Below, piece by piece: positions 6,688 to 41,533 of a stretch of DNA of 64,000 bases. The notes beneath the pieces are model-generated. The model saw only the letters and a program-made list of their open reading frames with translations, was not told the DNA's origin and searched no databases. Position 1 is the stretch's first letter. The number at the start of each line of letters is the position of its first letter. Where the stretch lies: positions 20,300,001 through 20,364,000 of the forward strand of contig NC_092671.1 of the NCBI RefSeq assembly GCF_964355755.1, given 5' to 3'. This stretch comes from Antedon mediterranea. Lineage: Eukaryota > Echinodermata > Crinoidea > Comatulida > Antedonidae. The translations under genes and the position numbers were made by a program.

Positions 6688-8120
6688 GTGTCATAAACAT
6701 ATTCATCTCCGATTTTCAAAACTGTCGGTCGTTTATTGGATTTTTTACCAGGATTTATCACTGAATTTATCACTTCCCATACCTTCTTAATGTTAGTTTT
6801 AACTTGATTAAATTTTTCTTCATAATATTTTTTTTGGGCTGTTCGACAAAGAGCAGTAAACAAGTTATTATATTTTTTGTATGTTCTTTTATCATGAATG
6901 TTTCGAGATTTAATGAATTGTTTATAAAGTTTATGTTTACGCTTACTGCACTTAAGAAGAGTGGGTGACATCCATGGCTGTTTGCATTTCTTTTTCTGCA
7001 TGGGTTTTTCTTTGGTGACTATGTGGTTTTGATGAACAGAAGAAAATATTTCAATAAATGTATCAAAAGAGGATTTAGTATTACAATCATATACATGGGA
7101 CCAATCAGTTTCTGAGAGATCAGAACTAAATGAATTTAAATCACGAATAAAATATGAATAATCAATAGTATTAGTGTTGGTTTGTAAATCATAATCAATT
7201 ATTTCAAAAATTGCTAAATGATCGGAAATATCGGAAATTATAATACCAGAAACGATTTCAGAATTAATATGATTTGAATAAAAATGATCAATAAGGGTTG
7301 CGCTATCTTTTGTAATTCTTGTTGGTATGGAAATAGTAGGGAAAAAAGAGTTAGATAAGATAACGTTAAGATAATTATTAATTAGATCTTTATTATGAAA
7401 TTTAATAAGGTCAATATTAAAGTCACCCATTATATTGCAGAATTTATTTTCAGAGCTTATATTGGAAAGCAGTTCATTTATTAATTTAGAGAAATTTTCA
7501 ATATTTGATTCAGGTGATTTATAAATAACGCCAATTATGGAATTTTTTTTTTATTTTTATGAACAATTTCTATAAAGAGGGAATCACATATTTCATTAGG
7601 TAATACTATATCATTTCTTATTTTAAAATTAATTAAGTTATTAACAAAAATGCCGACACCACCCCCTACTTTATTACCAAGTCGATTTTACTACATAAGA
7701 AAGTATAGTCATCTAGAAATGGGTATACTTTTCGGTCATTTAACCAAGTCTCGGAAAGACCAATGACAGAGAATTTGAGATTGATACAATGAAAAAGTTC
7801 ATTCAATTTATCAAACTTATTAGAAACACTTCTAACATTAAGATGAAAAAGAGATAAATTATTAGTGCTATTTAGTGTTTCTGTAAGTTTATTAAATTGG
7901 TCAATGTCGAAATATTTGCAATGGTCAAGAGTGGATGATCTGGAATTGATGTGGTTAATTAACATATCAGATTGTTGGTCAAATTTAAATTCATCATCTA
8001 TTATTAATGGGTTAAAATTAATATACATTTCAGAGGGTTTAAATGAAGCATTAAATACATCTACAAAATCTACCTCATAAAAAGGTAGTACAGACAAATA
8101 ATTATCCACCATTAGGTTGT

Positions 8121-8564
8121 TTTATATGATTTCGGTTACCAATGGAATGTATAGATATTGTAGCGTGCTATGAGAGTGTCATTTCTGGCCAACAGAGGTG
8201 CCATTCATCATAATTTAAGAGTAATATTTCCAGCCATCTAGGAGTGCTAGTGAACTAAATTCATTTCGCCACAGCCCCTCGTGGCACATGTTTATTGTGA
8301 ATATACTAGTTGAGATTTACCTACCAACTGGTTAAAATGAACATTCAATAGAAACAGGTCCATCCCAAATGATGTTACACTCATAGTGATGTTATTCAGG
8401 CCCTAGCCGGGGAAACTTGTTATGGTTCGGGAGAACCCCTTGACGTTAACATTGAACGCAAATGTTATCCTTAACCGTGTGTGTTTACTGGCCAAAAAAG
8501 TATGCTACGATCATTTGCTAATTGCAAGTGCGTCATTTCCGGCCAACTAGTTTGCTGTTATGTT
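8121..8564. other. No gene seen
   Basis: Spacer between the two LINEs. It may include the 5' leader of the minus-strand LINE. I see no exon or MTRR sequence. Confidence 0.5.
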
Positions 8565-9482
8565 TTAAAATAAGTTGATATGTAAGAAGAATATGATCTC
8601 ATATCTTGGTTGTTTGCTTGATGAAGACCTGTCTGGAGAATCTATAGTTCAAAAAGTTCTTAGTAAGACTAATTCAAGACTTAAATTTTTGTATAGACAT
8701 TCTGCATGTCTAAATTTCTTTTCTCGTAAAATTCTATGTTCGGCACTGATTACTTGTCACTTTGACTATGCATGTTGCTCCTGGTTTTACGGTGTTTCTA
8801 AAAAACTTAAACAAAGACTCCAAACCAGTCAAAATAAAGTTGCTAGGTTTATATTAAATAAAAATAATCGTGCACATATTGGTAAAGACGAGCTGAACCA
8901 AATCGGTCAATTATGTCTAGAGGATAGAATTTGCCAACTCAAACTTAATCATGTTCATAAGATTTTTTATGGAAAATCAGTACCTTATTTGACTGAAAAG
9001 TTTCAAAGAGTTTCATCTAACCACCATTATATGACTAGAAGTAGTGTCAATGGTTTTTCAGTTCCTAAATCTGATAGTCAAATATCTAAAACGTTTTATT
9101 ATACAGGCATAAAGGCATGGAATAACCTACCTCATTCCATTCAACAAATAGAAAACAAATTTAATTTTAAGAAAAATGTTAAATCACATTTCTGTTCTAC
9201 CAAATAACTTTATAAGTCAATCATAGTCTTTAATTTAACTTGTTTTTTATATTATTGTTTTTGTTATATTTACGTGTTTAATGCTATACTTTGTAATGTT
9301 TATATTTTTTATTTTAGATTGTAAAAGGATCCCAATGGAAATAAGCTGATAAGCTTTTTGGGCTATCCTGGAAAATCTTTTATAAATGTATTATTTGTAA
9401 TGTCCGTAATTTATGTTATCACTTTGTATGTATTTTTTATGATGATTTTCCAAATAAATTCAATTCAAATCAAATCAAATAC
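8565..9482 (+). mobile_element. 5'-truncated LINE, RT C-terminal part and 3' tail
   Basis: An uninterrupted 210-residue frame (8575-9207) encodes the end of a LINE polyprotein: SYLGCLLDEDLSGESI, SRLKFLYRHSACLNFFSRK, the KLKQRLQTSQNKVARFILN thumb region, and a final AWNNLPHSIQQ block. The catalytic palm is missing. The 3' flank ends in an AAATTCAATTCAAATC-type simple tail at about 9450-9482, as expected for a LINE copied from its 3' end. The nearest relative in the window is the LINE at 30300-33775. The copy lies just upstream of, and in the same direction as, the first visible MTRR exon, so it is probably in an MTRR intron. Confidence 0.85.
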
Positions 9483-9513: not shown

Positions 9514-12500
9514 GGATTTATCCGGATGCTTGCAGAATACACACCAAATACTTTAGAGAAGGCTCGTCTTCAAGAGTTATGCAGTAGGCAGGGATCATCA
9601 CAATATACACATTTTATTCGAGAGCCTAATCTTTCACTTTTAGACATTTTAAAAGCATTTCCATCATGTTGCCCACCAATAGAAAGAATACTTGAACATT
9701 TGCCAAGACTTTTACCAAGACCTTATTCGATTTCCAGGTATATTATCTGCTTTTGATTCAACCTGGGATTATTATAGTAGTCACAGGTTTCATAAAAATT
9801 TGAAATATTAGTTTTATCATTGTACCTGTTCATCTATTTTCATAACTAATCAATTTTTCCCCCAAAATATTGATTCAAATTTGATTGGTTCTAATATATA
9901 GATTCCCAATAAGATCTCAAATTGTATAATGCATCAAAAAAAGCAGTCTATCTGTTATATTGTGTAGCCTAAGCTTACATGCCTCAGCGAAGAATGAACA
10001 CGTGCAGTACGTCGCTCAGGTGCTGTGTACTGTGTAATTTTCGAATGTCTCTTACAATATTCACTCGGCAAATTTACCAATGAATTATTACGCTATCCTT
10101 TTTGTCAATTATTCTTCATCTCCACTTATTGATTTAAGTCAGCTTAAAGATGCCATATTTTAGAAATTAAGTAGGCCTAGAATCTGATTGCTACATGAGG
10201 CTGGTTGCCTGGCATGTTTGCTGAGGGGACCCAATCCAATGTAGAAATCATCTGTCACTTTATGATCATGTGTATGATCAATCACATGTTAGCATTTACT
10301 TAAGCTATGCAATATGTAAATAACAACAATAAACTAAAATTGTTATTTGTTGTCCAAAGTACAGCTATTAATTACTGCTTCGTTCCCATGCGTAACCCAT
10401 CGTAGCCTACACGTGAGGCATTTTTTTTAATGTGTGTGGAATTTTGCATCAATGTATCGGCACTAGGAGCTCATACTGTAGCTTACACCATCACTATACA
10501 GTAGTACAGAGGGTGAAGCAATGCCAAGTAAGTAAGAAAGAATGAAATCAGTTGCATTTTCTTTTATATTTTCTTCAGTTCACCACTGGTTTCTAGAAAA
10601 CATCTCAATTTTGTGTTTAATATTGTTGAAATACCATCCGGATCAGGCCGACAATATTCTCGCAAAGGTGTCTGTACTGGCTGGTTAAGTTCATCACAAA
10701 TAGATTGTAATAATAAGTCAAAGGTAAGAATGATAACAGAAAGTGGTTTTCCCCTACATTTGAACAAAGAAACATATTACATAAATTTGAACAATTTGGA
10801 ATATTTCAAATAATAATAAATGAAATGCCATAAAAAAAGTTTTTCATACATAATTTACAAATATTCTTTGTTGTTGAAATATTTACAATTTTTCTGATGA
10901 AAAGGAGTTAAAGAAGGAAATGTACAACATTTTCATATGGGGAATACAAACTAATCTTTGTTGTTGCACTATTTATCATTTTTCTGATGAAAAAAAGTAT
11001 AAATGTTTTAAAATATTTAATTATATATTTTAGAGCTGTTATCTTGCTTACATCAGATAATTAAGTGACGGCTGCCAGATAATAAGTGGCGGACACCAGA
11101 TAATAGCTCTTAAAATATAATTAACTAGTGGCCCAAACAGGCTTCCGTATTAATCAACCATGACTCTACATCAATGCAATGATGACAAATAAATCTATTG
11201 CAATACTGTTATGTACAGTAAATTACATTTAGTAAATTACCTTTCTTGTTATAAAATACAGACTCTGATTTTTATCGCTATTAGAAAAAAGCCATGCCAA
11301 GCTCCTGTGACAATGGATAGCTGCTTTATCATGCAATTCAATTTTCAGATTCCAATATATGGAAGAAAGAATTCAAGCTTCCATCTTCCCAGTGATTTAT
11401 CTATTCCAATGATTTTAATTGGAGCAGGCACAGGACTCGCTCCATTTATTGGATTTTTGCAGCACAGAGAAGCCCAGGTTAAGCAATATCAAGATCTACT
11501 TTGTGGACCAATTTGGCTTTTCTTTGGTTGCAGGCACAACGAACGGGATTACCTTTACAGGTATGATATAGTTTTTTAATTAAATACATAACTCACCTAG
11601 GTTCAGCTTTTAAATAAATTACATTTTAATATAAAATATCTAAATTTAATTTACTTTTTAACTTGACTGTGTCCAATAGTAATAACATAATCTTTGCTAT
11701 ACTTTGCCACTAAGACTCCTTACGCATATTGCAGATATTCAACTGCTTATAGATTTTAAATCCTTGCCTTCTTTATCAATAGACTATTCTATTGGAGTAT
11801 ACTACTGTTTAAATTGTTTTACCTTATTATAATATTTTGAATTTTGACAGACTATTCATTGAATAGAAGCCATAAACCAGAATACAACATAGACACTACG
11901 ATTTAGGTGGTTATTAAAACATGAAGAAATATACAATACCTCATAGGATATATTTTATACTAATATAAAAAATACAATATATTATAGTCATACTTGCTTA
12001 ATTGTTTACAATTTACTTACACTTTAAAATTCTCTGCTGCGCAAAAGGTGTGTACCCTTTGAAAATAGTACTGAAGTTCCACAGTTTAACACCCACTTTA
12101 CCCTGGAAATTCTCAATGTTGTTTTTTCACCTGATGATGTTCTAACTGCTATCAACCAGTTAAAAGAAAATTAGTGTGCTGGTCCTGACGTCTTTCATCT
12201 AAAGTATTGAAAGAATGTGGTCTAGTGCTGGCATTACCTCTATATTATTTATTTATTCTTTATTCTGCAATCACTTTCAGTACTAGTGATTTTCAAATTG
12301 GAAATATCTTAACAAACATTGTAAAGTAAAAACAAAGAGTAATCAAAATGATTAAATAGAGAAAATATACATTAAAAATATAAATCAATTTTAGAAAAGA
12401 AAACTGAAAAAAAAATTTTTTTCGGTATACACTAATATGGCTTTCTAACCCAACTTTTGGAATGTTTTCAAGATCTTCACAATGCAGCTGATGACATGAC

Positions 12501-15500
12501 AGAGATCCAGTCGTTATTTACCTCGACTGTAAAAAAGTCTTGATACTGTTCCGTATCTACGACTAATTAACAAATTAAAAAGTTATGGAATCTGCTCTTC
12601 TATCCTTCAATGGATAACTAATTTAATCTTGGTCTTTTCCTTCCTTCTCTTCCAGGATACCCCAAAAAATAGATTATTTCTCCTCGTTAGATTTTCCAAC
12701 TCATCAATTTTATTTTCTAAATCATTGATTATATGGCTGGTACTATCTTTTTGATTATGTTTTATGTCCTCATTTTCTTTAGTTACAAAAACTAGACCTT
12801 CATCTAAATCGCTAATGTTCTTTTCAATTTTTTTTTAGTTAATGCCCTGCATGTCCTCCTTACCCGACTGTACACTAACTATGTGACTTTTGGTGCATGG
12901 TCCTTTGTCTGACTTTTATCGCCTTGCAATCTCTCCGATTGTCTAACATATTGTGTTTCTGGCTTCTTTTTCTTTGAGTTGGACATTTCCAAGTACTTCT
13001 CCAGTTTTCCAGTAGAAATAATAAAATAGCACAGTCTCAACACATGTATATGAGCTCACAAAAAAGACACATCTTAGCTCTTGTGCATACCGCTATTTTT
13101 TAAATCCATTTCTGACAACGAAGCTGACCTTACAAAATGACAACAATGGAGACAGAAATGGTTACCCAAGTTTAACGAATCGAAGTGTAAAACAATGCAT
13201 TTTGATGTACAAAATCCAAATACACATATCACCTGGGGACTACAGCTCTGGAACCTGTCAATTACATGAAAGACATCGGGGTTTTTACTCGGGGTACCCG
13301 GGTCTAGGACTCGCTCATCTTCTCCTCTTCCATTTCCTCCTTCATCCGGACACTATTGAGCCAACTTTCAAGTCCTAGTTCTTTACGCGTCGTGTGACGT
13401 CTCTGAAACATGGCATGCATATACTAGGGTAATACAGTAGGTGAACAAAACTATAGAGAAAATGTTCGTACTTCAACCGGATGCAGAATTATGACGTCAT
13501 ACACATGGTACCAATCAAAAAAATTGCAATTTATAAAGTACTACTCCTCCCTTGTTGTACTGAGCTGGGATTTGGCATGGGTTAAAGGCTATAGAGCCAG
13601 ATTTTTTAATTTCAAACCGGATGCAGTCATATGACGTCTCGAGGATGGTACCTTGGTGCCAAACGATTTTCGTTGTAATATAGCCGTGTTTTTGATGTCA
13701 TTTATTTTTATTTTATTTTATTTTATTCATACTCATTCAACAGCGGGAAACCTGCCCCTTACAGAATGGAATTTCAAAGGTCTTGACTTGGAGAATAAGA
13801 ATACATACAGTAAGCACCTATTTATGATATTGTGACGTCACTTATGCTCCCGGAAATAGCAAAAAAATGGGTTATCCGTATTTGGTAGCGAGGTTATTGA
13901 TGTGTATGTGACGTTACATCCCGCCTTATGACGTCAACTTCTTTTGCTGTACCCCGAGTATCGCACATTCGTGCTTGTTGTTACACATAACCTGAAATCA
14001 ACAGTCCACACTAATAAATCTTCAGCAAATTAAAAGATTAACAGATTAAATGAACAACATGTATCACAAACTAAATACAGTAGCTAGCAAGTCAATGTAA
14101 TTCACACAGCCAATGAAAGACTACAAAATTTAGAAATTTAATTCCTACTGTACATAATCTACATTGTATTGTAAAACTTATTTTGAGTACTACTATCTAT
14201 ATATTAATGCTACTAAATTGTTCGCATAATTTTACGTATCTTTTCCAAAACCACTGAATTTTAAGGATAAACACTAAAAAAGGCAAAAAATAGCAGTAAT
14301 TTTACGTCTCAGCAACCATGTTACGTCACTGTATAAACTACACAGCCACCTCTGTTGTGTACCGCCATGGCCCGATCTACAAATATCATGCCGGGCCGCT
14401 AAATGAACAGTCTTTAGTCAACCGTATCGAATGATCGCGCCGTTGAAGTTTTAATTAATTACACCTATCCTTGGAACAGAATGTATTTTGTAAATCACGG
14501 TTTGGCTCAGTGAGCAAATCGCCAGGACCATTGATATCAATGCTTAGTATAGGTTCGAGTTTAATCCGCGACATGTGTAATAATTAAGTATCACCGTTGA
14601 AAGCTAAAAATCAAAACTAAACTGTAATGTAATTACAAAACTAGCAAAAAAGATACCAATAAATACACACCCAAAACATTTTAAAAAATGTATATGAACA
14701 AACTAAAAAAAAAACCAAAATAAAACGAATCCAAATGTCGTGTTTCCGCTAAATATAAAATATCAACAAAAAATACACCCAAATTTTGACTACATTTTTA
14801 TTCCAATAATTTGATAACATTACCTCACTTTCTGAGGCTGAAGTGAAGGAATAGTGTATAACAAACCAATGGCCGTATTTACAGTAGTTTCGAATTTTAT
14901 TTGTGATACAATTTGTTTTTATTTTAATAATTTGTCAAAGTACTTTTATCAAAGTGCGCTGTTATTATACTTGCCCATGTAAAGTATATAACAACATATT
15001 AAAGCAGAAAAAGACTGTGCGGAGCACGGGTTACTGCTAGTAATTGTTATTTCTGTATGAAATCACTGAACAAAATATATTTGTTTTTATTTTTTTTTTA
15101 TCATATAGGTCTGAACTAGAAAGATTTCATGAAGTTGGCATACTTTCAAATATTTCAGTTTCATTTTCTCGAGACAATTCAACTTCTGCACGATATGTTC
15201 AAGATAACATACTTCTACATTCTGATTCAGTATGTAAGTTGCTTCTGGAACAAAATGCTGTCGTTTATGTATGTGGGTAAGTATTTTTCCAACAACCCCT
15301 ATTACGGTGACACTTTCTCGTAAAACTATTGGCAACTATCAGCACTACAGACAACTCCTATTAGGGATACCCATACTTATGTGGTATATTTTTTTCCCTT
15401 AATGATATTCTACTGTATCAAATATAGTAGTTGAATTCAAATATTCTTGACAGCTTCCATTATGTTTGGAATTTTATATAAATACTGTAAATATGCAGAA

Positions 15501-17018
15501 TGCAACAATTGCTCTCTTTGCAGACGATGCAAAAGGCTTGAAATCTATTAATCAAGTGACCGATTGTAATCTTTTACAAGACGATATCAATTCGTTGTAC
15601 AAATGGAGTAAAACATGGGATCTATGTTTTAATCCATCTAAATGTCAAATAATATCTATTACTAGAAAACGAAACCCTGTAATATATGACTACAGGATGA
15701 ATAGTATTTCTCTCGCTAGATCTGATTGTATCAATGATCTAGGAATCGAAATATCTAATCATCTGAAATGGAATGAGAACGTCACCAAAGTTGTCTCTAA
15801 ATGTAATCGCAAACTTGGTATGATTAAACGGGCTATGGGTTACAATGCCCCTATCAGTATTACTAGGACGCTATTCACCTCCCTGGTTAGAACCAACCTT
15901 GAGTATGCTAGCTCATTGTGGAGTGGCACATCCAAATGTAACATGCAACGTTTGGAAAGTGTACAGCGTAAAGCTACCAAATACATTTTGATTTACTCCG
16001 ATCAAGATTACAAAGAACGTCTAACCTTGCTCAATTTACTGCCCCTATCATATAGAAGAGAATATATGGATGTTAACTTCTTCCATCAATGCTTGCTTAA
16101 CATGAATGATCTTAATATCAAAGATTTTGTTACATTTTCCGGAGACAATAATGGTCGTGCAACAAGATCATCTGTTGATGACCTCAATCTTACTGTCAGA
16201 AATGGTCATACTGAATAACATAAATGGATGTATTTCCAACGCATTGTTCCCATGTGGAATCAGTTAGATCAAGTTACTAGAGAAGCACCTACGTCTTACA
16301 GGTTTAAGCTAGGGGCTAAGAAATATTTTAACGACTTATTTACCAATACGTATGAAACTGGCAATATGTGCACATGGGTGTCCTGTTGTCGCTGCTGTAA
16401 ATGTCGACCAACTTAGTTTAATCTTAAATTATACAAATTTATAAATTACTATTTACTATATTTAAATATTTATTATAATGTTATTAACTTTTGGGATTCT
16501 AGAGGTGTTTACCACCTGTTGGTCCCATCCTTCACTGAATGTACTTTGTTCTTTATATATGTTATGTCTTTTTCTTGCTTTGTATGTACATTTTTTGTGA
16601 GAATTTGAATTAAAAAAAAAAAAATATATATATATATATATGCCTGGGCAGAGGTTTGCGCTCTCGGAATGCCCTTCTAGTTATTTCTGCTATCTCTCAG
16701 AACACCAGTGCTCCTAGGTATTTTATTTATTTTGACCTAAACAGCATATTATGCTAACAATCAAGGGGCCCTCATACACTCTAAAAATATACCATATCAA
16801 TCGCCAAAAAAACAGTTGTGCTGATTTAGACTAAAACTTTGTTGTGATATCACAATTTTGTTTTCCTCTCAAGGGATGCAAGAAATATGAGTAAAGATGT
16901 CAATAACACCATTGTCACTATCATTAGCCAACATCAAGGTATTGCTATGGAAGACGCAAAATCAGTAACTATGAAACTAAGACAAGAAGGCAGATACCTT
17001 GAAGATATTTGGACCTAA
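9514..17018 (+). CDS. MTRR: Methionine synthase reductase, C-terminal five exons (5' end outside window)
   Basis: Five exons splice in phase: 9514-9737, 10579-10723, 11349-11560, 15109-15276 and 16874-17018 (stop TAA). They give 297 residues. The first exon opens with LAEYTPNTLEKARLQELCS and ends in the FAD-binding RPYS motif. The next carries FNIVEIPSGSGRQYSRKGVC followed by TGWL, the second flavin-binding block. The NADPH domain follows: GAGTGLAPFIGFLQHR, WLFFGCRH..RDYLY, SFSRD, YVQDN and VYVCGD. The chain ends YLEDIWT with the family's penultimate Trp, which stacks on FAD. This order and the FGCRH/LQHR wording match MTRR rather than cytochrome P450 reductase or NDOR1. The enzyme reductively re-methylates the cobalamin of methionine synthase using NADPH, FAD and FMN. 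The FMN/flavodoxin half and linker must lie to the left, where the window contains only transposons. A 3.5-kb intron and a 1.6-kb intron hold LINE relics. Confidence 0.93.
12050..12620 (+). mobile_element. LINE reverse-transcriptase relic in an MTRR intron
   Basis: Two decayed blocks of one RT can be read with stops and frameshifts. About 12120-12245 gives DDVLTAINQLKEN, CAGPDVFHLK and LKECGLVLALPLYYLF. About 12440-12610 gives HNAADDM, a degenerate YLDCKKVLDTVPYLRLINKL stretch, and then SYGICSSILQWI. About 190 bases of A+T-rich sequence (12250-12440) separate them and may be a later insertion. No intact frame remains. Confidence 0.6.
12630..13010 (-). mobile_element. LINE ORF1-like coiled-coil relic in an MTRR intron
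   Basis: The minus strand reads, with stops, SHIINDLENKIDELENLTRR followed by NNLFFG. The heptad-spaced leucines and the RRNNL block are typical of LINE ORF1 proteins just before their nucleic-acid-binding domain. Upstream residues (DKGPCTKSHIVSVQSGKED) are less characteristic. It lies next to the RT relic but on the opposite strand, so it is probably from a separate element. Confidence 0.4.
13011..15108. other. MTRR intron remainder; no gene seen
   Basis: Intron sequence. A motif CCGGATGCAG...GACGT...GGTACC occurs twice about 140 bases apart (13479-13511 and 13618-13651), which suggests part of an unidentified repeat. Several TGACGTCA-like words cluster at 13490-13935. Poly-A runs lie at 14640-14770. 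No coding exon is seen here. Confidence 0.45.
15450..16641 (+). mobile_element. 5'-truncated LINE in the last MTRR intron
   Basis: The frame 15466-16218 encodes the RT C-terminal half, starting just before the catalytic LFADDAK motif. It continues through WDLCFNPSKCQIISITRKR, a YAS.LWSGTSK block, RLESVQRKATKYIL and then LPLSYRRE. A single stop at 16216-16218 separates it from the next in-frame stretch (16228-16416), which ends in the Cys-rich CTWVSCCRCCKCRPT. A poly-A run followed by (TA)n at about 16611-16641 forms the 3' end. It inserted in sense orientation between the two final MTRR exons. The lineage differs from the 8.6-kb and 30-kb LINEs, judging by the thumb and the Cys-rich terminus. 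Confidence 0.85.
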
Positions 17019-19418: not shown

Positions 19419-22400
19419 ATGGATTGTGTAATATGCTTATTCTTCGTATTAGTTTCTTCAAATGTGAATCGAATTCGTTTAGTTTTGGGAGATAATTTTA
19501 ACCAAGCTGGTGTGTGCCCTCAGAATCAGAGGTAAATTATTATTTTGATATTATAATTTGTGGTTTTGCTGCTACGATTTATTATTTTAAGCTACCTTAA
19601 GTAAAACAGGAATTTGTTTATATATTCGTCATTATTTTCTGTTATAATTATACTGTAATTTTCAAGAATAATTAATCGTTTTATTGGATTTACATTTTAT
19701 TTTTTTATACCAACGTTTCTATCAAATGAGATATATTCATAAATTTGTAATATATTATTGCTATTAATAACCGAAAAAATGTTTATGTAATAGAGTGATT
19801 CGTTATCGTATTGTAAAACAAAAATCACCATCAGCAGCGTTACCACTGTGTTCCATAGGTTTACATGATGTACTTCAAACAGAATCAAAGAAATGCAGAA
19901 GGTAGGACTATATTTAGCATAAAAATTTAAATAAATAATAATAATTAATGTTTATGAGCAAAATTAATTAACTTTATGTTGAATAGGAAGTATATTTTCA
20001 CAAGATTTACAGTTATACGATGTTTCAATGAATAAAAATAGTTATTCAACGGATACAGAACATAAATTATTTGTTTCATATCACGTCAAATCCAAACAGA
20101 AACATGAATTATCCTAACTATAGCAGTGACTAACTAACTGTGGCATACTTGTACGCAAGTAAATATTATTTGTTCTGTACACAAATAAAGGGATTCTGCT
20201 AATTTATGAAAATGGCATTATTGTACTATTTTAATCACTAGGGCGTTTTTTTAAATTTGTGTCACTGACCTATGAAATGTCTTTCCCTCCGGTGATGATG
20301 ACAAACATAATGAATCATAGGTTCCATTTACCAGAATTAAAAAAGACAAGTTTGGGACTAAAATGGCTATGCTTTAAATTAAAGGACGTCGTGTTATCAA
20401 TTAAGCTTTTTAAAATAATGATTTGTCTATAGTTTGATTTTTTACACTGGTAGGTTTGTTTGGTTTTTTTTTCTTTATTTATTTATTTTTTTTGTTTTTA
20501 CAATGTTTTAGAAAATGGGCTTACAATATTGTCTGTCGATAGTAATATTGGTTCCCGAAGAAATACTTAATTTCATCGTGATTGGTGCTAACCCATGACA
20601 TATTTTTAATCTCTCTACTTTTCCAAAGTCAATTGAAGTTCAATTAACATCTAAAATCAAAAGAACAGATAGCCTACATATTATTATTATTATTAATTGT
20701 TTTGGATGTAGAGCCACATCAGAAGTAAAGGAGGTGACTAGATTGGAGAAATACACCACAAATATTACGATTTTCACATGTTGTCCAACCTTCAAACCCA
20801 TCGGAAACATTTGTGTACCAGAAGCAATGTCAGGTAATGGTGATATGATATGTTTATGAACGAACATTTATTGAAGATAATGTAGGTCTAGCTGTATTTT
20901 TCAATGAAAGTGGTTCAGTCGATGTAGTGGTATTGTAGAATTTTCCCCCGCAACAGGCATAGTAAACACACATAACGTTGGCTTCATTTATGAGTGTGCC
21001 TCCGAAATGTTTTTGAACTATAGATTTTTAGGTATTGTTTCAAATAAATGCATACTAGACCTACCAACTAAAATAACGATTTTGACTGTGCTTAAAATAA
21101 TTACTGTACTAATTAAATCTAATTCTTTGAATTTATTCATTTAATGGTTAATTGTAACCTTCCGTGATTTAATCTGATCTATTTGTTACCGTATTAATGT
21201 ATACTATACTATATTATTTATCAACAGAAAACGATACAATAATCGGTTTGAACCAGAAGACCGAGCCAGAGAAAGGTATTGACATGGACGTGTTTTTAAT
21301 GGCATTTAGCATTGTTGCTGCTGGTATTGTTACAGTAATACTCATAATTATATTGTCTGTTCAGTGTAGATGGGTTTCTTGTCTTAAGATTAGAAGGTAT
21401 GTATAGCCTCAATGTTTTCAGTTTAAATAATGGATGCTTAGAATATAGTGTCTATCAATGTTCTCTTTATTCCTCTAGTCAGCGTGAACTGCTTACAAGG
21501 TTTGCGCACGTGTGTTACGTCTCATGTTCTATATTTATCGTGTTCAATATATCTTGCACATCTATATTTTGTATCTCTAAATTGGTTACAGTGCGATACT
21601 ATTATAAGTAGGCCTCTGTACGACTGAATATGTATAATACATAGCATATTATATTTTATCATTGGTAAATTGGTAGATTATTTGCCTGATTATAGTGAAT
21701 CTTCATTATAAATGTTTTTTTAAACATTTAGATTAAAAGAAAGTGGGATAGTCCGAGTTACAAGACGCGGCAAAAATCGTAAGTAACAGTAACAATGTTC
21801 ATCACTATTGCCGGTGTTACCGTACAGTACAATTTAATTAGTCATAGAACATCAACAAAAAAACATTTCTGTTCTGATTTATACTTACAAAATATAAATT
21901 AAAACGATTTACAATATTGAGAATCGTGATTCAACATTTCGATCGTTCGTTCGTTCGAAATCGATTTTTTAAATCTGAATCATAATTGTCTATAATAAGC
22001 CTAATCCAATATGATCGAAATGACTCATTGTGTTAAGAGTTTTTCTATTTTTTTGTTAATTTACTTAAACTTGGTGATCTGATTTGATTCTGATATGCTC
22101 TCCATGTATTTTCCATAGTCATTTTTACTGAAGGAATTGATAATGAATGACTCGTTAACACTGTTAATAGTTTTTCTATTTATTTAGGAAAAACATTATT
22201 ATTTTAATTTTAAATAACCGAATTCTGTAGGGAATACAGAATAGAACATGAGCCCATTCATTTTCTTATGTTTGCTTCCAATTAGACCATGTAAACTTTT
22301 CACATCAACGGACAATAGGACCATGTACAGTATTTAACATATTCAAAATTTCAGATCATTTTTATATATAAACTACGAGACGAACATTTGCTTTGTAATT

Positions 22401-23319
22401 AAAGGGTCCTAAAATTATTTAATTTTAATTTGACTGTAAAAAAATAAAATTAAAAATATTAGAATGTCAGTATCAATATTTTATATATATATACTCTTTT
22501 AATTTAGGTAACTCACGTCAACAGTTTGCATTTCTCGATTTGGCTCAGTCTGCTACAAGTAGTAGATGTTCTTGTATTGCTATGACAGACCATACAGATT
22601 TTGATAATGACGACACGTCAAATTCTACTAGTTTAAATAGACGATCCTTGCCATCCGTTTACGAAATACAAGGATTCCACGTTCAACAAGAAAATCATAC
22701 CAATCCTTATCCTATGCTTGATCCGCCATTACTCAGGCCAAGACCTACAGGGAGAGCCGAATTACAGGAACCAAGTAAAAACCATTTTGACTGTGATGAT
22801 TATGCAGTAGTGTTGTCGTTTGGAAACAGTTTTAAGCACAATCATTCGACAGAAGAAGACGCAACAGCGTCCGCTAATGACTACATAACAACCCTGCGTT
22901 CAAAATTTGGTGATTTCAAAAGTAATTCCCGGCATGGTCACGTATTCTCAACTGACATGAGTGTTACCAATGACTATGTAACTGGTGTTGGAACACGTTT
23001 AGATGATATGACTGTAGGATATGTAACGACAATTGGAGCGCATCCTGACTGTTCGGAATCTAAAAATGACAAATGTCGTTTATTTCCAAGTCAGTTTTTT
23101 GCAGCCTCAGAACTGGATAGTGTTGCAGAATACATAACTTCAGTTAAAAAAACACACGATAATATTCGTTCGATGGTAAACCGAGAATCAACTTCCACCT
23201 ACGATTCAAACTACATGACTCCAATGGATGCAACTCGAACATTATCTTCCAATGCTACCAGTGCGGACTACGATGATGTTGATCTACTCCACAATAATTT
23301 CATTTCTGAAGAATATTAA
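19419..23319 (+). CDS. Single-pass receptor-like protein with mini cysteine module and repeated tyrosine motifs
   Basis: Five exons join in phase (19419-19531, 20712-20833, 21228-21396, 21732-21778, 22508-23319) to give 420 residues. Residues 1 to about 17 form a signal peptide (CLFFVLVSS core). The ectodomain is only about 80 residues, with C33, the pair C61-C62 (FTCCPTF) and C72 (GNICVP), plus N-glycosylation sites N55 and N80. This resembles the cysteine module that precedes the EGF repeats in MEGF/Draper-type receptors, but no EGF repeat follows. Residues 100-123 are a membrane helix, followed by basic residues. The 300-residue tail is acidic and Ser/Thr-rich with eleven tyrosines, including NDYITTL (Y276), NDYVTGV (Y307), VGYVTTIG (Y322), AEYITSV (Y359), NYMTP (Y386) and ADYDDV (Y405). 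These look like phosphotyrosine docking sites. The start ATG is the first one that opens a leader. Exon phases match the receptor at 34790. The function is inferred; I know of no named orthologue. Confidence 0.82.
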
Positions 23320-30299: not shown

Positions 30300-31919
30300 G
30301 AGAAGTTTTAATCAGCTGACCAACACTTGTTTACCTGTTTGATTGACATTGCTAAGCTCCTGGATTACTACAAATGTTCTTATTTTTTTATGCCTTCTAG
30401 TGAGAATTAACTTTACATGCCGCCCAACGTTAAACTCGGACATTTTTTCTACGTTAAACCCCAGCATATATGATAGCTGGGCAATTCAACCGAAGATACA
30501 TACGGATAACCTGAATATAATGTCTCCCTTATGGACAATGTACGGATCTTCTAAACCGTATCCAGTTTGCCGCTTAACCTTAAAAAACCCAAGTTTCCTG
30601 ATGGTACTTATTATTATCGCTGGAGACGTTTCTCCGAACCCAGGACCAATCAGAAACCCATGTTCAATTTGTAAAAAACCGATTGCGAAAACGCACAGGG
30701 CAATGAAATGCTCTGAATGTAAATGTCACTACCATATCAAGTGCGGAAGAATAACTAAAATTGTATATGATAAGCAACGGAACTCGAAAGATAATTGGTT
30801 ATGTAGGCCTAAAGAATGCCTCTTCAATCAGCTTCCGAATGATGAATGCATCAGTGACATTAATATTCATGACAAATTTATTGCCGACGCAAATAATGTG
30901 AATGAAACCCGACAAGATGGACATACATGTACAGAAGACATTTACAAGCATTTAAGCGAGGAATTCAACGTGTTTGACAAAGGCCTACATTTTATTCACC
31001 TTAATGCGCGGTCATTAGTTAATAAAATGTCTGAACTAAGGCACATCGCATCGAAGAGCTGTAACTGTTATATCCATCAGCGAGTCGTGGCTGGACGAAT
31101 CCATCACCGATAACGAGATCAAACCGGTCTGGTGGTGGAGTTTGTATCTACGTAAAAAATGAACGCGCCTTCACACGTAGAAATGATCTGGATATCGACG
31201 GTTTTGAAGCAATTTGGATAAATATATATCTGCCTCGTTCAAAGGAAATTGTGATTGGTACATGCTACCGCCCACAAAAACAGAATGTAACTTTATTTCT
31301 GAACAACTTTGAAGAAACTGTATCAAAAATCAAAGAGAGTAGTGAAATTTATATTCTTGGTGACTTTAACATATGTACTTTAAATATTAATCCAGTATCG
31401 CAAAGATATAATGATTGTCTTATAAGAAATGGTTTTTAGTAATGTTATTAAGGATATAACTAGAATAGGAAAAGAAAAAAGCTCATGTTTGGACCACATT
31501 GTTACTAATGTAATGTAATGTGAAGCAATCTGGAGTAATTAACATTGGCCTTAGTGACCATTTTCTTATTTATTGCACTAGAAAAATACCTAAGTCTCAT
31601 GTTCATAAAAATGAACACAACTCCGCAAAATTACGATCTTTAAAAAACTATAATGTAAATAACTATATTGAAACACTTAACGATATCGATTGGTCTGTTG
31701 TCACTAATAATGACGATGTAAATATCGCGTGATTAACTCTTAAAGATATCATCATTAAGGTGATCGACTCAATAGCGCCAATAAAAAAAGTTAGACTTAA
31801 ACAAAACATAGCACCCTGGTTTACCTCCGAAATTGCCAATGAAATCAAAGTAAGAGACAAACTTTTAAAAAAAATTTAAGAAAGATAAATCTAATCTAGA
31901 TATATACAGGTCATTGTGC

Positions 31920-32332
31920 ATTAGAGCTAATACACTATGTAGAACTTTCTCAAAATGCTCTAAAAACATAAAGTGTTTTTTGTTTAAAACATATTGTAAT
32001 AACTTATACTGTGCTTCTCTGTGGGAAAATTTTAATGTAAAATCAATGGAAGCACTAAAGGTGTGCTTCAACAATGCCTTACGCCTGCTCCTTAATAAAC
32101 CTAGGTCATGCAGTGCCAGCACCATGTTTGTAGAAAACCACATCTGCTCGTTCTACGAACTACAACGTAAGGTGGTGTTTGGCATGTTGTACAGGTTAGG
32201 GAGGTCAGACAATATTGTCATAAAATGTATTCATGAATTTGCTTTTCCTTCATCCAATCTACATAGTAGATGGATGAAGCTATTGTTCTAACCACGTGAC
32301 TATGTTGCGTAGGTTTTTTTTTTTAATATATC

Positions 32333-32377
<45 letters not shown>

Positions 32378-32469
32378 ATATTTGTTATATTTACAATAAT
32401 GTACACTAATTTGTTACTGAACTATGGAGAATTTTTTTTTTCCGAAATAAAAGATGAATGAATGAATGA
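31920..32469 (+). mobile_element. Younger 5'-truncated LINE nested in the 30-kb LINE
   Basis: The frame 31914-32291 is the C-terminal end of a different LINE: LCRTFSKCSKNIKCFLFKTY, then CNNLYCASLW, a LRLLLNKPRSCSASTMF block, and a KVVFGMLYRLGRSDN stretch. A (TA)n run (about 32336-32374), AATAAA and a GAATGAATGAAT tail follow. The flanks carry a diverged target duplication of about 20 bases: ATATATACAGGTCATTGTGC (31900-31919) and ATATATACAAATCTTATTGTGC-like sequence (32470-32491). Host LINE residues IYRSLC and IYKSYC on the two sides confirm this. Confidence 0.8.
32336..32374. repeat. (TA)n microsatellite
   Basis: About 18 TA units in the 3' end of the nested LINE. Shorter TA runs are at 16617-16641 and 60632-60651. 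Confidence 0.9.
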
Positions 32470-33775
32470 ATATATACAAATCTTATTGTGCCTCCAGGAA
32501 CAAAGCTCAGCGGCTGATCAAAAAAGCTAAATCTAATTATTTTCTCAATAAGATTGATGAAAATAAAGACAACCCTAAAAAATTATGGAAAACCCTAAAA
32601 CAGCTCGGATACGAGAAGAAATGTAAAACAAACACTAAAATAGTTCTCGATGCCAGACAATGGTAAAAAAACTTTCTGTCCAAAAGGCGTTGCCTCTCGT
32701 TTTAATGAGTTTTTTACGAATGTTGCGTCAACACTCGTCAAAAAACTCCCAACATGCATAGGCTTTTTCACCATGTCCACTAACGATCTTCATAAATACT
32801 ACGTAAAATTAAAAGGTAACTCAACTCGAAAGCCTAAATGTTAACAAAAGCGTCGGTCTAGATAATATTCCCTCAAGATTTTTACGAGACGGTACGATAA
32901 TCTTGGCTGAACCGATAGCTCATATCATTAACCTTTCGTTTAAAACTAATTGTTTTCCTCGTGATTTATTCTTAAAACAGCTAAAGTTACCCCACTATTT
33001 AAGAAAAATACTAGAACAAGTGTTGAGAATTATCGGCCGATTAGTATTCTGTCTACGGTATCAAAGATTCTTGAAAAATCTGTAGCTATACAAGTTGAAA
33101 GGTATCTTTCCAAAAATAATATACTTTATGCCTATCAATCCGGTTTTCGGAAGGCCCATTCAACTGAAAGCAACCTCATAAATCTCATCGACGGTTTAAA
33201 AAACAATAAGTCCAAAGGCCTTCTTACTGGAATGGTAGTGCCAGGACTGGTTAACTGAAAACAAATTATCTTTACATGTTGGCAAAACCGAAAGTATTAT
33301 CTTTGGTAGCAGAGCGAAGCTTAACAAAGTTAAAGAGTTTTCTGTGGAATTAATGGGCCGTAGAATCAAAAGTACTACGCAAGTTAAATATTTGGGTATT
33401 GATTTAGACCAATATGTATCATGTGATATTATTGCAACTAGTGTTATAAGTAAAGTTAAGTCAAGGTTGAAGTTTTTACATAGGCAAAGTTCATGCTTGA
33501 ATAAAAAATGTCGTAAACTATTAAGCACTGCTTTAATACAATGTACATTTTGACTATTCAGCCTCGGCATGGTACGGCGGTGTCAATAAGAATCTTAAAC
33601 ATAAATTACAAACTGCCCAAAACAAGATGGCACGTTTCATTTTAAATGTTGGTCCGAGGTCTCACATAGGTGCCAAAGAGCTTTCCGATCTTGGGTTTCT
33701 TAATGTCAGCCTCAGAAATAAGTTTTTAAGATTAAATTATGTTCACAAAATTCTTTTTTATTTAATAAACATGTA

Positions 33776-34789: not shown

Positions 34790-37700
34790 ATGGGTGACAT
34801 CTATCGCGAAAAATCATGGCTTTTTTGTGTTATTTTATTCATTTTGTTACTAGGTCTAAGTATAAATGATGATGTGGTTTGTGGGAACATAACCGATAGT
34901 AATGACAATGTATGTACTACAGTAAGGTTAGTAAGAAATGTTATTGTGTTTATAATAGGTTTTGCTATTTGGTTGGTGTAAGTAGTGAATGTCATTATTT
35001 TACTCAATACAAGAATTTGAAATAGATTGATGCTATAAAGTAGTGCTTAGTGTTATCAATCGTTTGGTTATTAAAGAAACTGTAATTATTGTAATGGTTT
35101 AATGCAACATGTATCCCATTTTCACGGTATCATGTCCATCGACTTAACCCTGTAGTATCGTGTCTGCTAATGGAAAAAGGCCCAACCATAGGACCTGGTT
35201 ACTTACACCTGACCCTCTAAACAATCCACTATGAAAACGGTTCTCGGTATTGTATACGATTTGTCCAGAATCATAGGAAAGTACTGTCCGTGTTGTATTA
35301 AGGACATCTCATAAGGCCACTGATTTTGATTGTATTGTTTTAGAAATCCTAAATCTAGTCTGGTATGATTAAATAAATAAATTATAATAAAATAATATGA
35401 TAAGCCTAATACTGGACAACATTGTCTTAAATGGAAATACAGCACCGAGAATCAGGTTTAAAACTTAGATCCTAGTATATCGATCGATTGGGAAGCTGAC
35501 GTTTTTAAAAATAGCAATACAGTGTGACACATGTGAGTTGAGCGCAAGGTAAATTTAATGTTGTCTGCGCGTATCATTATACGAATAGTTTGATACCCGT
35601 AAAGAAAAAGTATTAACATCTTGATAATGTGTATAGGTTAGATATGTTGTCCAACTGTGAAGCATTCATCTTATATTCGAACAATTGTGATTTACATTTT
35701 GATGGTAGATTGTGTGAATTTGTTCATCCGGAAAGGTACGTTTATTTTTGTTTTCACAGACGTATTCAGAACGTACATATTTCTATTTGCCCTAATGAAA
35801 CATTTTACAAAACAATGACCGGAAGTACGACATTTGACCCTCGACCCCATTTCTCAATATTGTATATAAATATAATAAAATTAAAATGTCTCCTCTCAAA
35901 TGACTCAGATACATGTTTCTAGTAGGATATAAGACTGTTAAGTAAATCTCAAAAATTCACATGAATAACTCGCCTGGAAAGTATGCAAATTAGTAGTACA
36001 AGTTACATGAAATATGCAAATTAGAGGGTGAAATCACATAATATAAGGCTAGAGAGTTGATTTTTTCAAAGACGAGTTTAGAATGTACATATTTCTATTG
36101 CTCTAATGAAACATTTTACTAAAAAATTGAAGTACAAAAATTGACCCTTGACCCCATTTCTCAATGTTTGCATACAGAATGCGACTAAAATGTCTGTGTA
36201 GAGTCTTTGTTTTGGCCTCAAATGACTCGTATAAAGGTTTCTGAGTAGGATTGTTTAGTATTATTCTCATACTCGCCTCCAAAGTATGCATATTAGTAGT
36301 ATACAACGGGTGAAAGTTACCATATCATTATCGTTTTTCGCGATATGGCACCACTGTAATGTGTAACTTGTACTACTAATTTCCATACTTTCGAGATGCA
36401 TGGCAGGGGTGTGATTTGGGAATTACAAAACGGTCCTATTCTGGCTTTTTGAAAATAGTATTCATCAATTTGAGGCAAAAACTAAATCTCTACAGACATT
36501 TTAGTTACATAAATGCATTGAGAAATGGGGCTTGTACTTTTGTCATTTTTTATTACAGAAAATACAAATAAGTACATTCTGTGAAAAATCATCTCTCTAG
36601 CATTAGCGGTTTAAGATTCGGCGGGAATGTTGTAGTTTCACCCCATAAATTACATATTTAATGTAACCTGTACCACTAATTTGCATATTTTCGAGGTGCG
36701 TGATAAAGGTGTGATTTGGAAATTACTAAACGGTCCTATGCTGGCAATAGTAAACCTGTATCCAAGTCATGTATGTCTGTACAGACATTTTAGTTGCATT
36801 ATTTATGCAAAATTGAGAAATGGGGTCATGGGAGCATATTTCATGTAACTTGTATTACTAATTGGCATACTTGTGAGGTGAGTGATTTACTTACTTTATT
36901 AGAAACCTGTATCCGAGTCATTTGAAGGCAGAAAAAAGTCTATATAGACATTTTAATTTAATTATATAGGCCCTATGCAATAATTTGAAATGGGGTCGAG
37001 GGCAAAATGTCGTACATCCTGTTATTTTTTTGTAAAATGTTTCATTAGAGCAACTAGAGATAGGCCCTATGTACATTCTGAATGTGTCTGTGAAATCGTC
37101 TATATAGATTAAAGTACAGTATAGCGATAAACGATGAATTCAAACTAAATATAATCATGAATCTTGCCCAGTGACATAGATAAAAAGACTTGATTTTTGT
37201 ATTCGATAGTGATACGTCTTTATTACAAATCAACTGTTGTCCCGGATATACTGGTACTGACTGTTATGAAGGTAAGGGTTATGATATACATTGCCATAAT
37301 AATGTTTATTATAATGATTCATTATCATTATCACCACATCATCATCACCACCACGACACCATCATCAATAATAATAGTGGCCAACCTGTATCGGATCACA
37401 CAAGCCCATTACAATGTGAAATACTGAAAACTGATCCAACCAATCATTTATGCATCATTTTACTTCTCTTAATTTTTTCTTCCATTGGTAGAATGTCCGG
37501 AGAATATGTTTGGACTTAATTGTCTTGGTAACTGTGAATGCCAAAATGGTGCCACATGTAACCCCATCAACGGATCATGCACATGCCCTGATGGTTATAC
37601 CGGTGAATTTTGTGAGCGTACCTGTACGGAAGGATTATATGGTGGTGGATGCTTATTGACATGCCCTGATTGCCACACAGACAGCTACTGCGATCATACC

Positions 37701-40700
37701 AACGGTAGTTGCATTTGCCCTCCAAAACTTGAAGGTGAACTTTGTTCTGAAAAACAAAAGGGTAACCCAGACTTCTGTAGTTTTTGTCCACCAAGTGACG
37801 TATGTGGTGAAATTTCGTGCTGTGATTCTAGCAGTGACTTCTGCTTATGCGGACCTGGATGGACAGGGATTTATTGCACAGAACCATGTGAAGTAGGAAC
37901 CTTTGGAAAAAACTGTAAAAAGTACTGTGAATGTGAAAATAATTCTACTTGCTTGCATACAGACGGACGTTGCATATGCACACAAGGCTGGACAGGAACA
38001 TTATGCAACGAACCTTGTGAAAGTGGGTTTTTCGGGAACCAATGTTTTCAGATGTGCAACTGTCCAAATAATAGTACGTGTGACCACATAACAGGGGCAT
38101 GTCATTGTGCTGGTGACTGGCAGGGTATGAGGTATCGTATTCTGTTTAGATTGATTTTATTCATTAATTAAAATTATTTATGGACCTTCTTCCTAAATTA
38201 TGTAGTCCTGCTTTAGTTTAGATATAGATAGTGAATTATAATCAAATTAACTATTACGTTTAAAATATAATATATAATATAACTGCACCGCACATCATAA
38301 ATCGGCAATTACATGATATAGATGTAATAATTTACTGCAATACCGTATTAATTCGAATACACCTTTTTAGGGGTAGTTGGGTGGGTTGTTGTTATTCGAG
38401 AGGGAGGTGTTTATTCGGGTGAGGCGTTTATTTATTTGGCTGTAATATGGTAACATGTATAATCAAATAAATACCCTCTTAGATATAAAAAAAAAAATAC
38501 AACACAATTATATTAAGAAATGATAAGTGAAAATTGTATCAACATTCTTGGTAAATTGTGGATCTTGTCAATCAATGAATTCTACTACAAATAGAAATGC
38601 AATATTGTGTATAAATGCATGTGGTGGGGCGTTTATTACAGGATATTATTAGTAAATTGGGCGTTTATTCGAATAAATACTGTATTCCTTAAAATTATTT
38701 CAAGAATGAGTTGACATTCGTTTTATTTACAGATGTAATGAAGGAATACATTGTAAACCTAATGAAAATTGTCGGCCTGCAAACGGAACGTGCATAGGTA
38801 ATAACTAATATTTTATAGTATCGATGGTAATTGTGATGATAATATCATGATAATAAGAATAATTATTATTGTTATTATTACTATTATTTACCTCCGCGAA
38901 GGCGGTATATGTAGTCGATCGCGTGTTTTTGTTTGTCTGTTTGTGTTTGTTAGTGGGATTACTCAAAAAGTAATTACAATTTACCAAAATGAAAATACAG
39001 ATAGATAGATATGTGGTCAAGGACATCAAGGCATCCGGACCACGGTCCCAATTCTGGACCACTTTTTAGTATAAATTGTTAAAAGAAAGGACAGAATTTT
39101 CAAAAGCCGATGAGTAGTTTTAAAGTAACAATTAGGCCTAAACTGAAAACGCATTTTCTCGAGAACTACTTCATTTGTGATTTGTAATTTACCTCCGCCA
39201 AGGAGGTATATGTAATCGGTAGCGTGTATTTGTTTGTTACTTGGCCAAATTGAAAATTGGCCAAGTATGTTGATCTGTTTGGTTTGTGTGTGTGTTTGTT
39301 TGTTTGTTTGTCATCACTCTAGTGCTCACAGTTTTGATTCGAATGACACCAAATTACTACCATACATGTCACCTTGTGCAAGGACGACACTGCCCAATTT
39401 TGGTTAAAATCTGGACCACGGTCCCAATTCTGGATCACTTTTAAAAAGTATGTTCAGACCTGCTAGTGTTAAAAGATTGGACAGAATTATCAAAATCCGG
39501 TGAGCAGTCTTAAATTAACAAGTAAACTACTAAAATTGCATTTTCTCGAGAACTACTTGTCCAAAAAACTTCATTTTTGTACAAGAGGCAAGTGTTATAA
39601 TTTGTGATTTGTAATTTTAAAACATAATTAGATTTAATGTACAGGTTTTTTGATGCGAATAGTTTTAAAAACCTATTTCTTTTCAAATTCACCCGTGTGT
39701 TTTTCCCGCGTGCTGTTCTATTGTTCGGTTCGGTTTGTGTGTGTGTTTGTCATCGCTCTATCGCTCACAATGGTAAATACACATAGGAATCTTTCTTCAA
39801 ATGTTAGTCAGTTGTGTATGGCTCGGTGGTCTGTGCTGGTGTCTACAGCATTTAAGTTACCGAGATCGAGTCTCACCTTGGGAAATGAAACGAAATCAGA
39901 TTTTTTTTTTATTGTTTGTTGATTTATAATTAAATTTAGAGAAATTATGTCTCTATTTTCATGTTACATGGGAGGTTTATAACATATACTGAACTTTGAT
40001 CAGGTTAAAATCGGTCAAGGTCAAGTTTGTTTAGGAGGCCAATTTGATTTGGCCAAGTATCGCGCTATGCGCGAAGGCTAGTTTGTTTGTTAGCAGGATT
40101 ACTCAAAAAGTAATTACAAGATCTTCACCAAAATAAATATACAGATAGATATGTGGTCAAGGACCATTCCATCAAATTTTGGGACAATTGTCCCAATTCT
40201 GGACCACTTTTTAGTATACTTTTCAGACCTGCTAGTGTTAAAAGATAGGACAGAATTTTTCAAAAGCCGGCGAGCAGTCTTAAATTAACAAGTATACTGA
40301 AATTGCATTTTCTCGAGAATTACTTGTCCAAAAAACTTCATTTTTGTACAAGAGGCAAGAGTTATAATTTTTAATTTGTAATTTTATAACATAATTTGAT
40401 TAAATGTGCACGTTTTTTTATGCCAGTAGTTTAAAAAACCTATTTTCTTTTCAAATTCACTCGTTTGATTTTCGCGTTGCTGTTCTATTGTTAGTCAACT
40501 GAAGCTATTGTTAATTGAAAGGCTTGTTACACAACCATTACACCAAACTCGCATACACATGCTTGTAGTGAAATTAGCCTAAATCACAAACAGCATTAAG
40601 ACACACACAAATATATATATATATATTTTTTTTACCGGAGAAATCTTATGTAGGAGAATTTTACAGTAGGAAAATTCTTGTCTAGAAAAGTTGGATTCGA

Positions 40701-41533
40701 GCTTAGTAAGAATTATTTATTGGTTCTTTCGTTAAAAACGTTTAATGACAATTACCGGTATCTTTATCAACAGCCGATGTGGAAACTATTTCCAAGAGGA
40801 CACCACCAATTAAAAGTGGTATTGCAGCCGGTGCGGGCGCCACTACATTCCTCTGTCTAGTTGTATTGACAATATATTGCATGAAAAGAACAAAAGTACA
40901 ATCAAGGTATGTATGCATACTATACTAATCATCAGATATCTAACTTGCATTATATGCTCGAATGTGCATATATACAGATCTAATCCAAACTTTTCTATAA
41001 TACGTTAGATTCTTTTAATTTCGACTATTAGGCCTATACCGTATTTTTGTACAGTGTTCTTATAATATTTAAGCATACTTTATTTATTCTTTACTGTTTT
41101 AGAACATTTAGTATGGAGAGAAAAGTTCCTATTTCTTCGAATGGTAAGTGACCAATTAAAATTAATAAATATTTATACTTGTTTGACTTACCTACTGTAA
41201 TATATTACCTTTATAATATACAATGAGTATAAGCAATAAATATCGCAGAAATTATAGAAAACGAAATAAGTCTATTATTATTATTATACTGCAGGGCCTC
41301 AGCCACCACCACGACCAGGATTCGCAACGTTCAACAATGAACCAGTTTACGATTCTATTGGTGAAGATGGGCATTATATAGAAATAATTGATAATAAGCC
41401 ATCAGGCATCTATAATCCCGAGTATATAATATCAGGAGGTGAAGGTTACTTAATACCAAGCACAAGACCTACATCATCAGAACATCAGGACACAAGCAGT
41501 AGTGGATCAAATTATTCAACTGATAGTTCGTAA
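34790..41533 (+). CDS. MEGF/Draper/SCARF-like EGF-repeat receptor with ITAM-like tail
   Basis: Eight exons join in phase (34790-34926, 35637-35735, 37210-37271, 37492-38131, 38733-38797, 40774-40906, 41103-41143, 41295-41533) into 471 residues. A signal peptide has its hydrophobic core at residues 10-24. A cysteine module follows (C31, C42, C53, C63, C72, and C88-C89 in INCCPGYTGTDC), like the end of an EMI domain. Residues 101-334 hold about five EGF-like repeats of the short MEGF/SCARF type (GYTGEFC, GWTGIYC, GWTGTLC, DWQGMRC). Residues 350-371 are the membrane helix. The tail has a proline-rich PQPPPRP, a tyrosine pair YDSI...YIEI (Y411/Y420), NPEY (433-436) and YLIP (Y444). CED-1, Draper and MEGF10 use NPxY and YxxI/L motifs to recruit PTB and Syk/Src-type adaptors in engulfment, so phagocytic or scavenger signalling is a reasonable inference. 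The exact orthology is open. The exon at 37210 could instead start at 37188, but only 37210 keeps the phase. Confidence 0.87.
35756..37100. repeat. Palindromic cluster of ~290-bp repeats in receptor-2 intron 2
   Basis: At least two forward units (about 35756-36060 and 36062-36345) are followed by inverted, diverged units (about 36350-36640, 36650-36860, 36865-37100). Forward units share TACATATTTCTATTG, AATGAAACATTTTAC, GACCC(T)(C/T)GACCCCATTTC and CAAATGACTC. Inverted units carry the complements (GAAATGGGGTC, AAAATGTTTCATTAGAGCAA, ACATTTTAGTT, GAGTCATTTGA). The parts could fold back on each other. No coding capacity is seen, and I do not recognise the family. Confidence 0.75.
37318..37378. 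repeat. Imperfect CAT/CAC microsatellite
   Basis: A run of TCATTATCATTATCACCACA-type triplets lies in the short intron between receptor-2 exons 3 and 4. In some frames it gives poly-histidine, but it is intronic. Confidence 0.7.
38338..38690. mobile_element. MITE-like element with ~25-bp terminal inverted repeats
   Basis: The left end AATACCGTATTAATTCGAAT matches the complement of the right end (AATACAGTATTTATTCGAAT) with few differences. Both continue into CACC/ACGCC. The interior has GTTATTCGAGAGGGAGGTGT and GGCGTTTATT blocks and no reading frame. It lies in the intron between EGF exons. Partial similarity at about 24530-24680 supports a repeated family. Confidence 0.6.
38885..40500. repeat. 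Diverged repeat array in receptor-2 intron 5, with a nested insert
   Basis: Three diverged copies of one unit lie at about 38890-39180, 39190-39640 and 40080-40490. Shared words are CTCCGCGAAGGCGGTATATG, GGATTACTCAAAAAGTAATT, AGATAGATATGTGGTCAAGG, CCCAATTCTGGACCAC, GACAGAATTTTCAAAAGCCG and CATTTTCTCGAGAACTACTT. An inserted block from about 39238 begins with a hairpin (ACTTGGCCAA / TTGGCCAAGT) and ends near 40081 with CGCGCTATGCGCG followed by AAGGCTAG, next to T. This could be a second Helitron-like family, but a TC start is not evident. No coding exon is seen between 38797 and 40774. Confidence 0.6.

Follow-up and report, generated by a model that had tools for sequence, protein, structure and literature searches.

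A predicted receptor gene with an EMI-like ectodomain and a tail of repeated tyrosine motifs in an echinoderm genome

According to the relevant passages of PMC8092387, MEGF10, Draper and CED-1 are single-pass proteins with an EMI domain outside the cell and tyrosine motifs inside it. For NimA, excerpts of PMC13076899 describe an EMI domain that is needed for cell adhesion, and not for multimerisation, together with a tail that contains no known domain but has predicted phosphotyrosines. Among echinoderms, an extracellular matrix review (PMC10381214), in the portion dealing with this gene, lists collagen XXVI as an EMI gene.

Within a window of 64 kb (the whole stretch of DNA that was analysed) a gene was predicted that looks like a stripped-down variant of this established class of receptors for cell contact and engulfment. 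The reading towards which we lean is that of a type I membrane receptor in which a single divergent EMI module faces outwards and the tail within the cell offers several tyrosine docking sites, i.e. an EGF-less relative of the PEAR1/MEGF10/NimA type; at present, this claim concerns a single gene prediction. What places the gene near the CED-1/Draper/MEGF10/PEAR1/NimA kind is the likeness of its ectodomain to a divergent EMI domain. Its single span and the order of its parts fit those of MEGF10, Draper and CED-1, with an EMI-like module (sub-threshold in Pfam) at the N-terminal side and tyrosine motifs in the tail, whereas the EGF-type repeats and, by pattern, the ITAM and/or NPxY motifs of those receptors were not found in it. 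Since no ITAM, ITIM or NPxY is present by pattern in its tail, the window gene does not count as a true MEGF10/Draper receptor. NimA and PEAR1 also have the EMI domain outside (EMI-like here), and phosphotyrosines are predicted in the NimA tail; NimA, however, has one NIM repeat and two EGF-like repeats and PEAR1 has multiple EGF repeats, while none were found in the window gene. NimA offers the closest working model. Echinoderm collagen XXVI, in the part of the review that covers it (PMC10381214), has an EMI domain too, but is a matrix protein with triple-helix parts. The original prediction, that no described family has this architecture, was too strong, given the EMI-like ectodomain and an EGF-repeat receptor gene with the same predicted exon phases 11 kb downstream; the combination of an EMI-like module only, no EGF repeats and a Y-[IVM]-T tail was not met in the portions of the literature that were searched.

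The window gene (positions 19419-23319, + strand) is predicted to consist of six exons with GT/AG splice sites, joined in one continuous frame of 456 residues, with exon ends in phases 2, 2, 1, 2 and 1 (Table 1). Its product comprises a signal-like start, a six-cysteine ectodomain, one membrane span and a tail of 295 residues. The hydrophobic stretch VICLFFVLV at the start has a 9-residue hydrophobicity mean of 3.6, and on the Kyte-Doolittle scale the computed 19-residue mean peaks at 2.92 (residue 139), which marks a strongly hydrophobic span. A signalling adaptor or co-receptor had been proposed for this locus. That proposal is partly supported, a single-pass membrane protein with a phosphotyrosine-docking-type tail being the best anatomical reading.

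Table 1 Features of the predicted window gene and of its predicted neighbour. Positions are those of the window; exon borders and phases are predicted.
Feature	Position	Strand	Description
Exon 1	19419..19531	+	Start codon, signal-like stretch VICLFFVLV, first cysteine of the module (GVCPQNQ); ends in phase 2
Exon 2	19794..19901	+	Cysteines 2 and 3 of the module; phase 2 to 2
Exon 3	20712..20833	+	Last part of the EMI-like module (TCCPTFKPIGNICVPE); phase 2 to 1
Exon 4	21228..21396	+	Short linker, membrane span (~residues 137-161), then RWVSC; phase 1 to 2
Exon 5	21732..21778	+	Short juxtamembrane exon, basic (LKESGIVRVTRRGKN); phase 2 to 1
Exon 6	22508..23319	+	Bulk of the cytoplasmic tail, repeated tyrosine motifs, stop codon
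Six Y-[IVMA]-[TV]-x-[ILVM] sites	22801..23226	+	DYAVVL, DYITTL, DYVTGV, GYVTTI, EYITSV, NYMTPM
ADYDDV	23263..23280	+	Fits the Nck SH2 consensus pY-D/E-x-V/P
Neighbour gene	34790..41533	+	Predicted, 471 residues; 11 kb downstream of the window gene

The resemblance of the ectodomain to a divergent EMI domain is suggested by the order of its cysteines and by a 2-to-1 exon phase. It was compared with five EMI domains of the same genome, including those of stretches L005 and L006. The six cysteines are separated by gaps of 23-14-24-0-9 residues, against 25-7-24-0-10 in L005 and L006; the cysteine order agrees with all five domains, and four of the gaps differ by no more than 2 residues from the closest domain. 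The second gap, however, is 14 where the five domains have 6-7, and the first and last (23 and 9) fall just beyond the EMI ranges of 25-27 and 10-12. The exon of the window gene that bears the CC pair runs from phase 2 to phase 1, and at the seven EMI places of the genome the top-scoring donor was of phase 1 in every case and the top-scoring acceptor of phase 2 in six. The length of 80 residues originally given for the ectodomain fits the six-cysteine module (~80), but not the whole predicted ectodomain past the signal peptide, which measures about 110 residues.

On a profile made from the five own-genome EMI domains the ectodomain obtained 10.3 bits, a value reached by none of 996 scored full shuffles (1,000 were made), which is a narrow pass as the best of them gave 10.2 bits, and by 5 of 1,000 shuffles in which the cysteines were kept fixed (best 15.3). 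The Pfam EMI family (PF07546) matched it over the second half only, with 11.1 bits against a cut-off of 25, and a provisional join of the ectodomain gave 15.1 bits; the full 456-residue protein had no match in Pfam, EGF families included. Three joined EMI domains of this genome scored 57.5, 38.2 and 22.6 bits in Pfam, and the genome-wide EMI search returned eight matches in seven places, four of them over the cut-off and none in the window gene. In view of both the EMI features and the sub-threshold scores, the ectodomain is named EMI-like and is not filed as a member of the family, its EMI assignment being putative. The best-surviving alternative, which we regard as rather unlikely, is that it represents another small disulphide-rich fold, in which case the receptor would be unrelated to PEAR1/MEGF10 and its tail would still be an SH2 docking platform. 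The sub-threshold Pfam result, the odd second cysteine gap, the failure of the genome-wide EMI search to list the gene and a profile score hardly above the best shuffle all favour such a fold, but the order of the cysteines, the 24 residues that precede CC, the CC..C ending and the course of the exon from phase 2 to 1 are as in EMI, and one of the three joined EMI domains scanned from this very genome (L008, with 22.6 bits) is likewise below the Pfam cut-off.

All the motifs to which attention had been drawn at the outset (NDYITTL, NDYVTGV, VGYVTTIG, AEYITSV, NYMTP and ADYDDV) were recovered in one forward frame at the places given for them; in the five Y-[IVM]-T sites the codon for tyrosine starts at 22882, 22975, 23020, 23131 and 23212, and in YDDV at 23269. 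The tail of 295 residues includes 11 tyrosines, and the motifs are computationally enriched: Y-[IV]-T occurs four times, whereas composition shuffles average 0.09 (four or more in 0 of 100,000), and Y-[IVM]-T five times, which was again reached by none of 100,000 shuffles. In a scan of many two-position tyrosine patterns, which allows for the post hoc choice of motif, 3 of 3,000 shuffles equalled or exceeded the observed maximum of 5. The longer pattern Y-[IVMA]-[TV]-x-[ILVM], picked after the data had been seen, has six sites (0/20,000 shuffles). An identity of the tail as an ITAM, ITIM (pattern [SIVL]xYxx[ILV]), NPxY, YxxM or YxN type was ruled out, none of these being present by pattern, and the other tyrosine patterns comprise one YxxL/I (YPML), one YxxQ (YEIQ) and one YDDV. 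A search of this genome with the tail (E up to 0.001) returned matches to its own exon only, and membership of a recognisable family within the genome was thus ruled out.

By motif fit, the tail is a candidate SH2 docking platform. In BRDG1, BKS and CBL, the SH2 domain recognises a hydrophobic residue at position +4, with Leu or Ile preferred (PMC9783222), and the +4 residue is Leu or Ile in three of the six repeat sites. A hydrophobic +4 taken by itself was found six times, where shuffles average 2.4 (six are reached by 319 of 20,000); this point is weak because, with ten offsets allowed, 3,026 of 20,000 shuffles reach six hydrophobics at some offset, so that +4 is not significant. For the Y-[IVM]-T-x-[ILVM] sites, the +4-reading SH2 domains of BRDG1, BKS and CBL would be a better match than those that read ITAM or ITIM motifs. 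The single ADYDDV site fits the consensus given for Nck SH2 in PMC8187788, and Nck may be the most specific partner by motif.

Elsewhere in the genome, an EGF-type receptor in stretch L013 (1388-2032; contig 2, ~38.9 Mb) has a tail exon with NDYSKL, GDYGKL, EEYDTL and DTYNVL. This tail is rich in tyrosine motifs of another kind, and tyrosine-rich tails therefore recur in this genome. By eye, no Y-[IVM]-T array was seen in six contig 2 stretches near matches to an EGF-repeat query; these were picked from the 95 EGF-query matches listed and viewed as filtered rows and frames of up to 400 residues. In L009, an EGF-query stretch, there was no clear membrane-span exon.

The mechanism that we propose for the EMI-like receptor, in which ligand, phosphorylation and every binding partner are putative, would begin with contact of the EMI-like module with another cell or a cell surface, upon which the receptors would cluster, a cytoplasmic tyrosine kinase would phosphorylate the tail and SH2 proteins would dock on it; pYDDV would then recruit Nck and so link the receptor to actin. 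Since NimA multimerises without need of its EMI domain, clustering through this module is not a given. If this reading is true, receptors of the EMI type can dispense with an EGF stalk, one array of a repeated tyrosine motif replaces ITAM/NPxY signalling, and the locus offers a compact natural case for the function of EMI alone and for multivalent SH2 docking in echinoderm cells.

The gene 11 kb downstream bears on the origin of the window gene. It is predicted to encode a signal-like start, a cysteine-rich start with CCPGYTG, EGF repeats and a membrane span, with the motifs YDSI, YIEI and NPEY in its short tail. It is like the window gene in strand, predicted phases, span exon, short juxtamembrane exon and single tail exon, but unlike it in having EGF repeats and NPEY, and there is no significant similarity between the two proteins (best E 0.21), so that the sister reading is drawn from predicted phases, order and strand. 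The predicted phases of the neighbour are 2, 2, 1, followed by two EGF exons (2, 1) and then 2, 1; in other words, the phase series of the window gene recurs in it on the two sides of an EGF block with phase 1 at both ends. Loss of such a block would preserve the frame and may have taken place in the window gene, which probably descends together with EMI-EGF receptors of the PEAR1/MEGF10 kind, its EGF exons having been lost or never gained. The neighbour is accordingly best called a candidate sister.

In Pfam the neighbour matched EGF families, with a sub-threshold match to a PEAR1-like EGF family (17.6 of 37.5). Neither Pfam nor the cysteine pattern marks its start as EMI, and this start obtained 6.3 bits on the EMI profile, a score reached by 6 of 996 full and 30 of 1,000 cysteine-fixed shuffles of the window gene. 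Some of its splice sites were chosen for frame rather than by score: the first EGF exon ends at a donor that is not among the best four, and for the CC exon and two later exons the acceptor used is not the top-scoring one. By top-scoring sites, membrane-span exons run from phase 1 to 2 in six of seven genes tested (the window gene, the neighbour, L010, L011, L012 and L014, and not L013), and that part of the pattern is therefore general.

That the two genes are adjacent, share a strand and agree in predicted exon phases also invites a second alternative, improbable in our view, in which the window protein would act on the EGF receptor next to it as an inhibitory partner or a decoy, clustering with it and recruiting negative regulators, Cbl for example, at the +4-type sites. 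The repeat motif does have the hydrophobic +4 that the BRDG1/BKS/CBL SH2 group reads, according to PMC9783222, but the tail contains no ITIM by pattern and the +4 preference is weak after correction for ten offsets. There is also a slim chance that the gene exemplifies an echinoderm receptor class of its own, with an EMI-only ectodomain and a +4-read phosphotyrosine array, which would signal by valency and not through ITAM/NPxY, and would act together with the EGF neighbour.

The gene model itself combines predicted splicing and exon phases with a tail exon whose openness is computed directly. The exon 1 donor reads AG/GTAAAT. Exon 2 has a strong donor (9.1) and a weak acceptor (-0.3), for which reason it is counted as putative; among 11 open phase-2 exons of at least 40 bases between exons 1 and 3 it is the sole candidate with two cysteines. 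The exon 3 acceptor ranks second by score, the top-scoring one lying upstream and out of phase, and since the phases of exons 1 and 3 join in frame, an isoform without exon 2 is possible. Exon 6 is the coding part of a stop-free frame (22429-23319, + strand) of 296 codons, a length matched in none of 200 first-order simulations of the window (longest 220 codons), and its period-3 signal was reached in none of 2,000 simulations. EGF exons hidden in the window gene were ruled out, as neither Pfam nor, among the matches listed, the EGF-repeat query gave an EGF match there. That the locus is a pseudogene, or a mis-spliced piece of a larger receptor with overlooked EGF exons, is very improbable: the gene is a prediction alone and its exon 2 acceptor is weak, but the frame of the tail stays open over 296 codons and its period-3 signal is strong, the gap between exons 3 and 4 is just 394 bases, and of at least 95 genome matches listed for the EGF-repeat query (a lower bound, as 150 of 313 candidates were scored) the one in the window belongs to the neighbour.

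The genome searched comprises 354 Mb in 18 contigs. With the whole window protein as a query (E up to 10), it returned the six exons of the gene itself, in order, and nothing else. A PDB search by sequence gave no match, NCBIfam gave a single meaningless one (HpnI, 13.1 of 310 bits), and nine pattern matches in prokaryote genomes included no relative. A COX1 search, intended to reveal the mitochondrial code, gave no match. The ambulacrarian setting assumed in the original prediction is supported by a match in the genome to Bindin, an echinoderm sperm protein (E 2.3e-28 over 66 of 238 positions), for which none of 14 control genomes was matched.

Several other features were noted. In contig 2, at 5.46-5.47 and 19.50-19.51 Mb, open frames of 1,643, 1,262 and 1,062 codons contain many matches to the EGF repeats of the neighbour, and L010 (1681-2265) holds a tandem repeat of about a dozen near-identical units, open in two frames. 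Within the window, frames resembling reverse transcriptase at 138-9204, 15451-16215 and 30343-33550 are, by eye, apparently remnants of LINE retrotransposons. A frame at 61632-62771 (- strand) of 380 codons gives a sub-threshold match (21.3 of 27 bits) to MEIOC, a meiosis-specific coiled-coil protein, and another at 11193-11576 (+ strand) contains an oxidoreductase NAD-binding domain (Pfam E 6.3e-07) and presumably resembles methionine synthase reductase.
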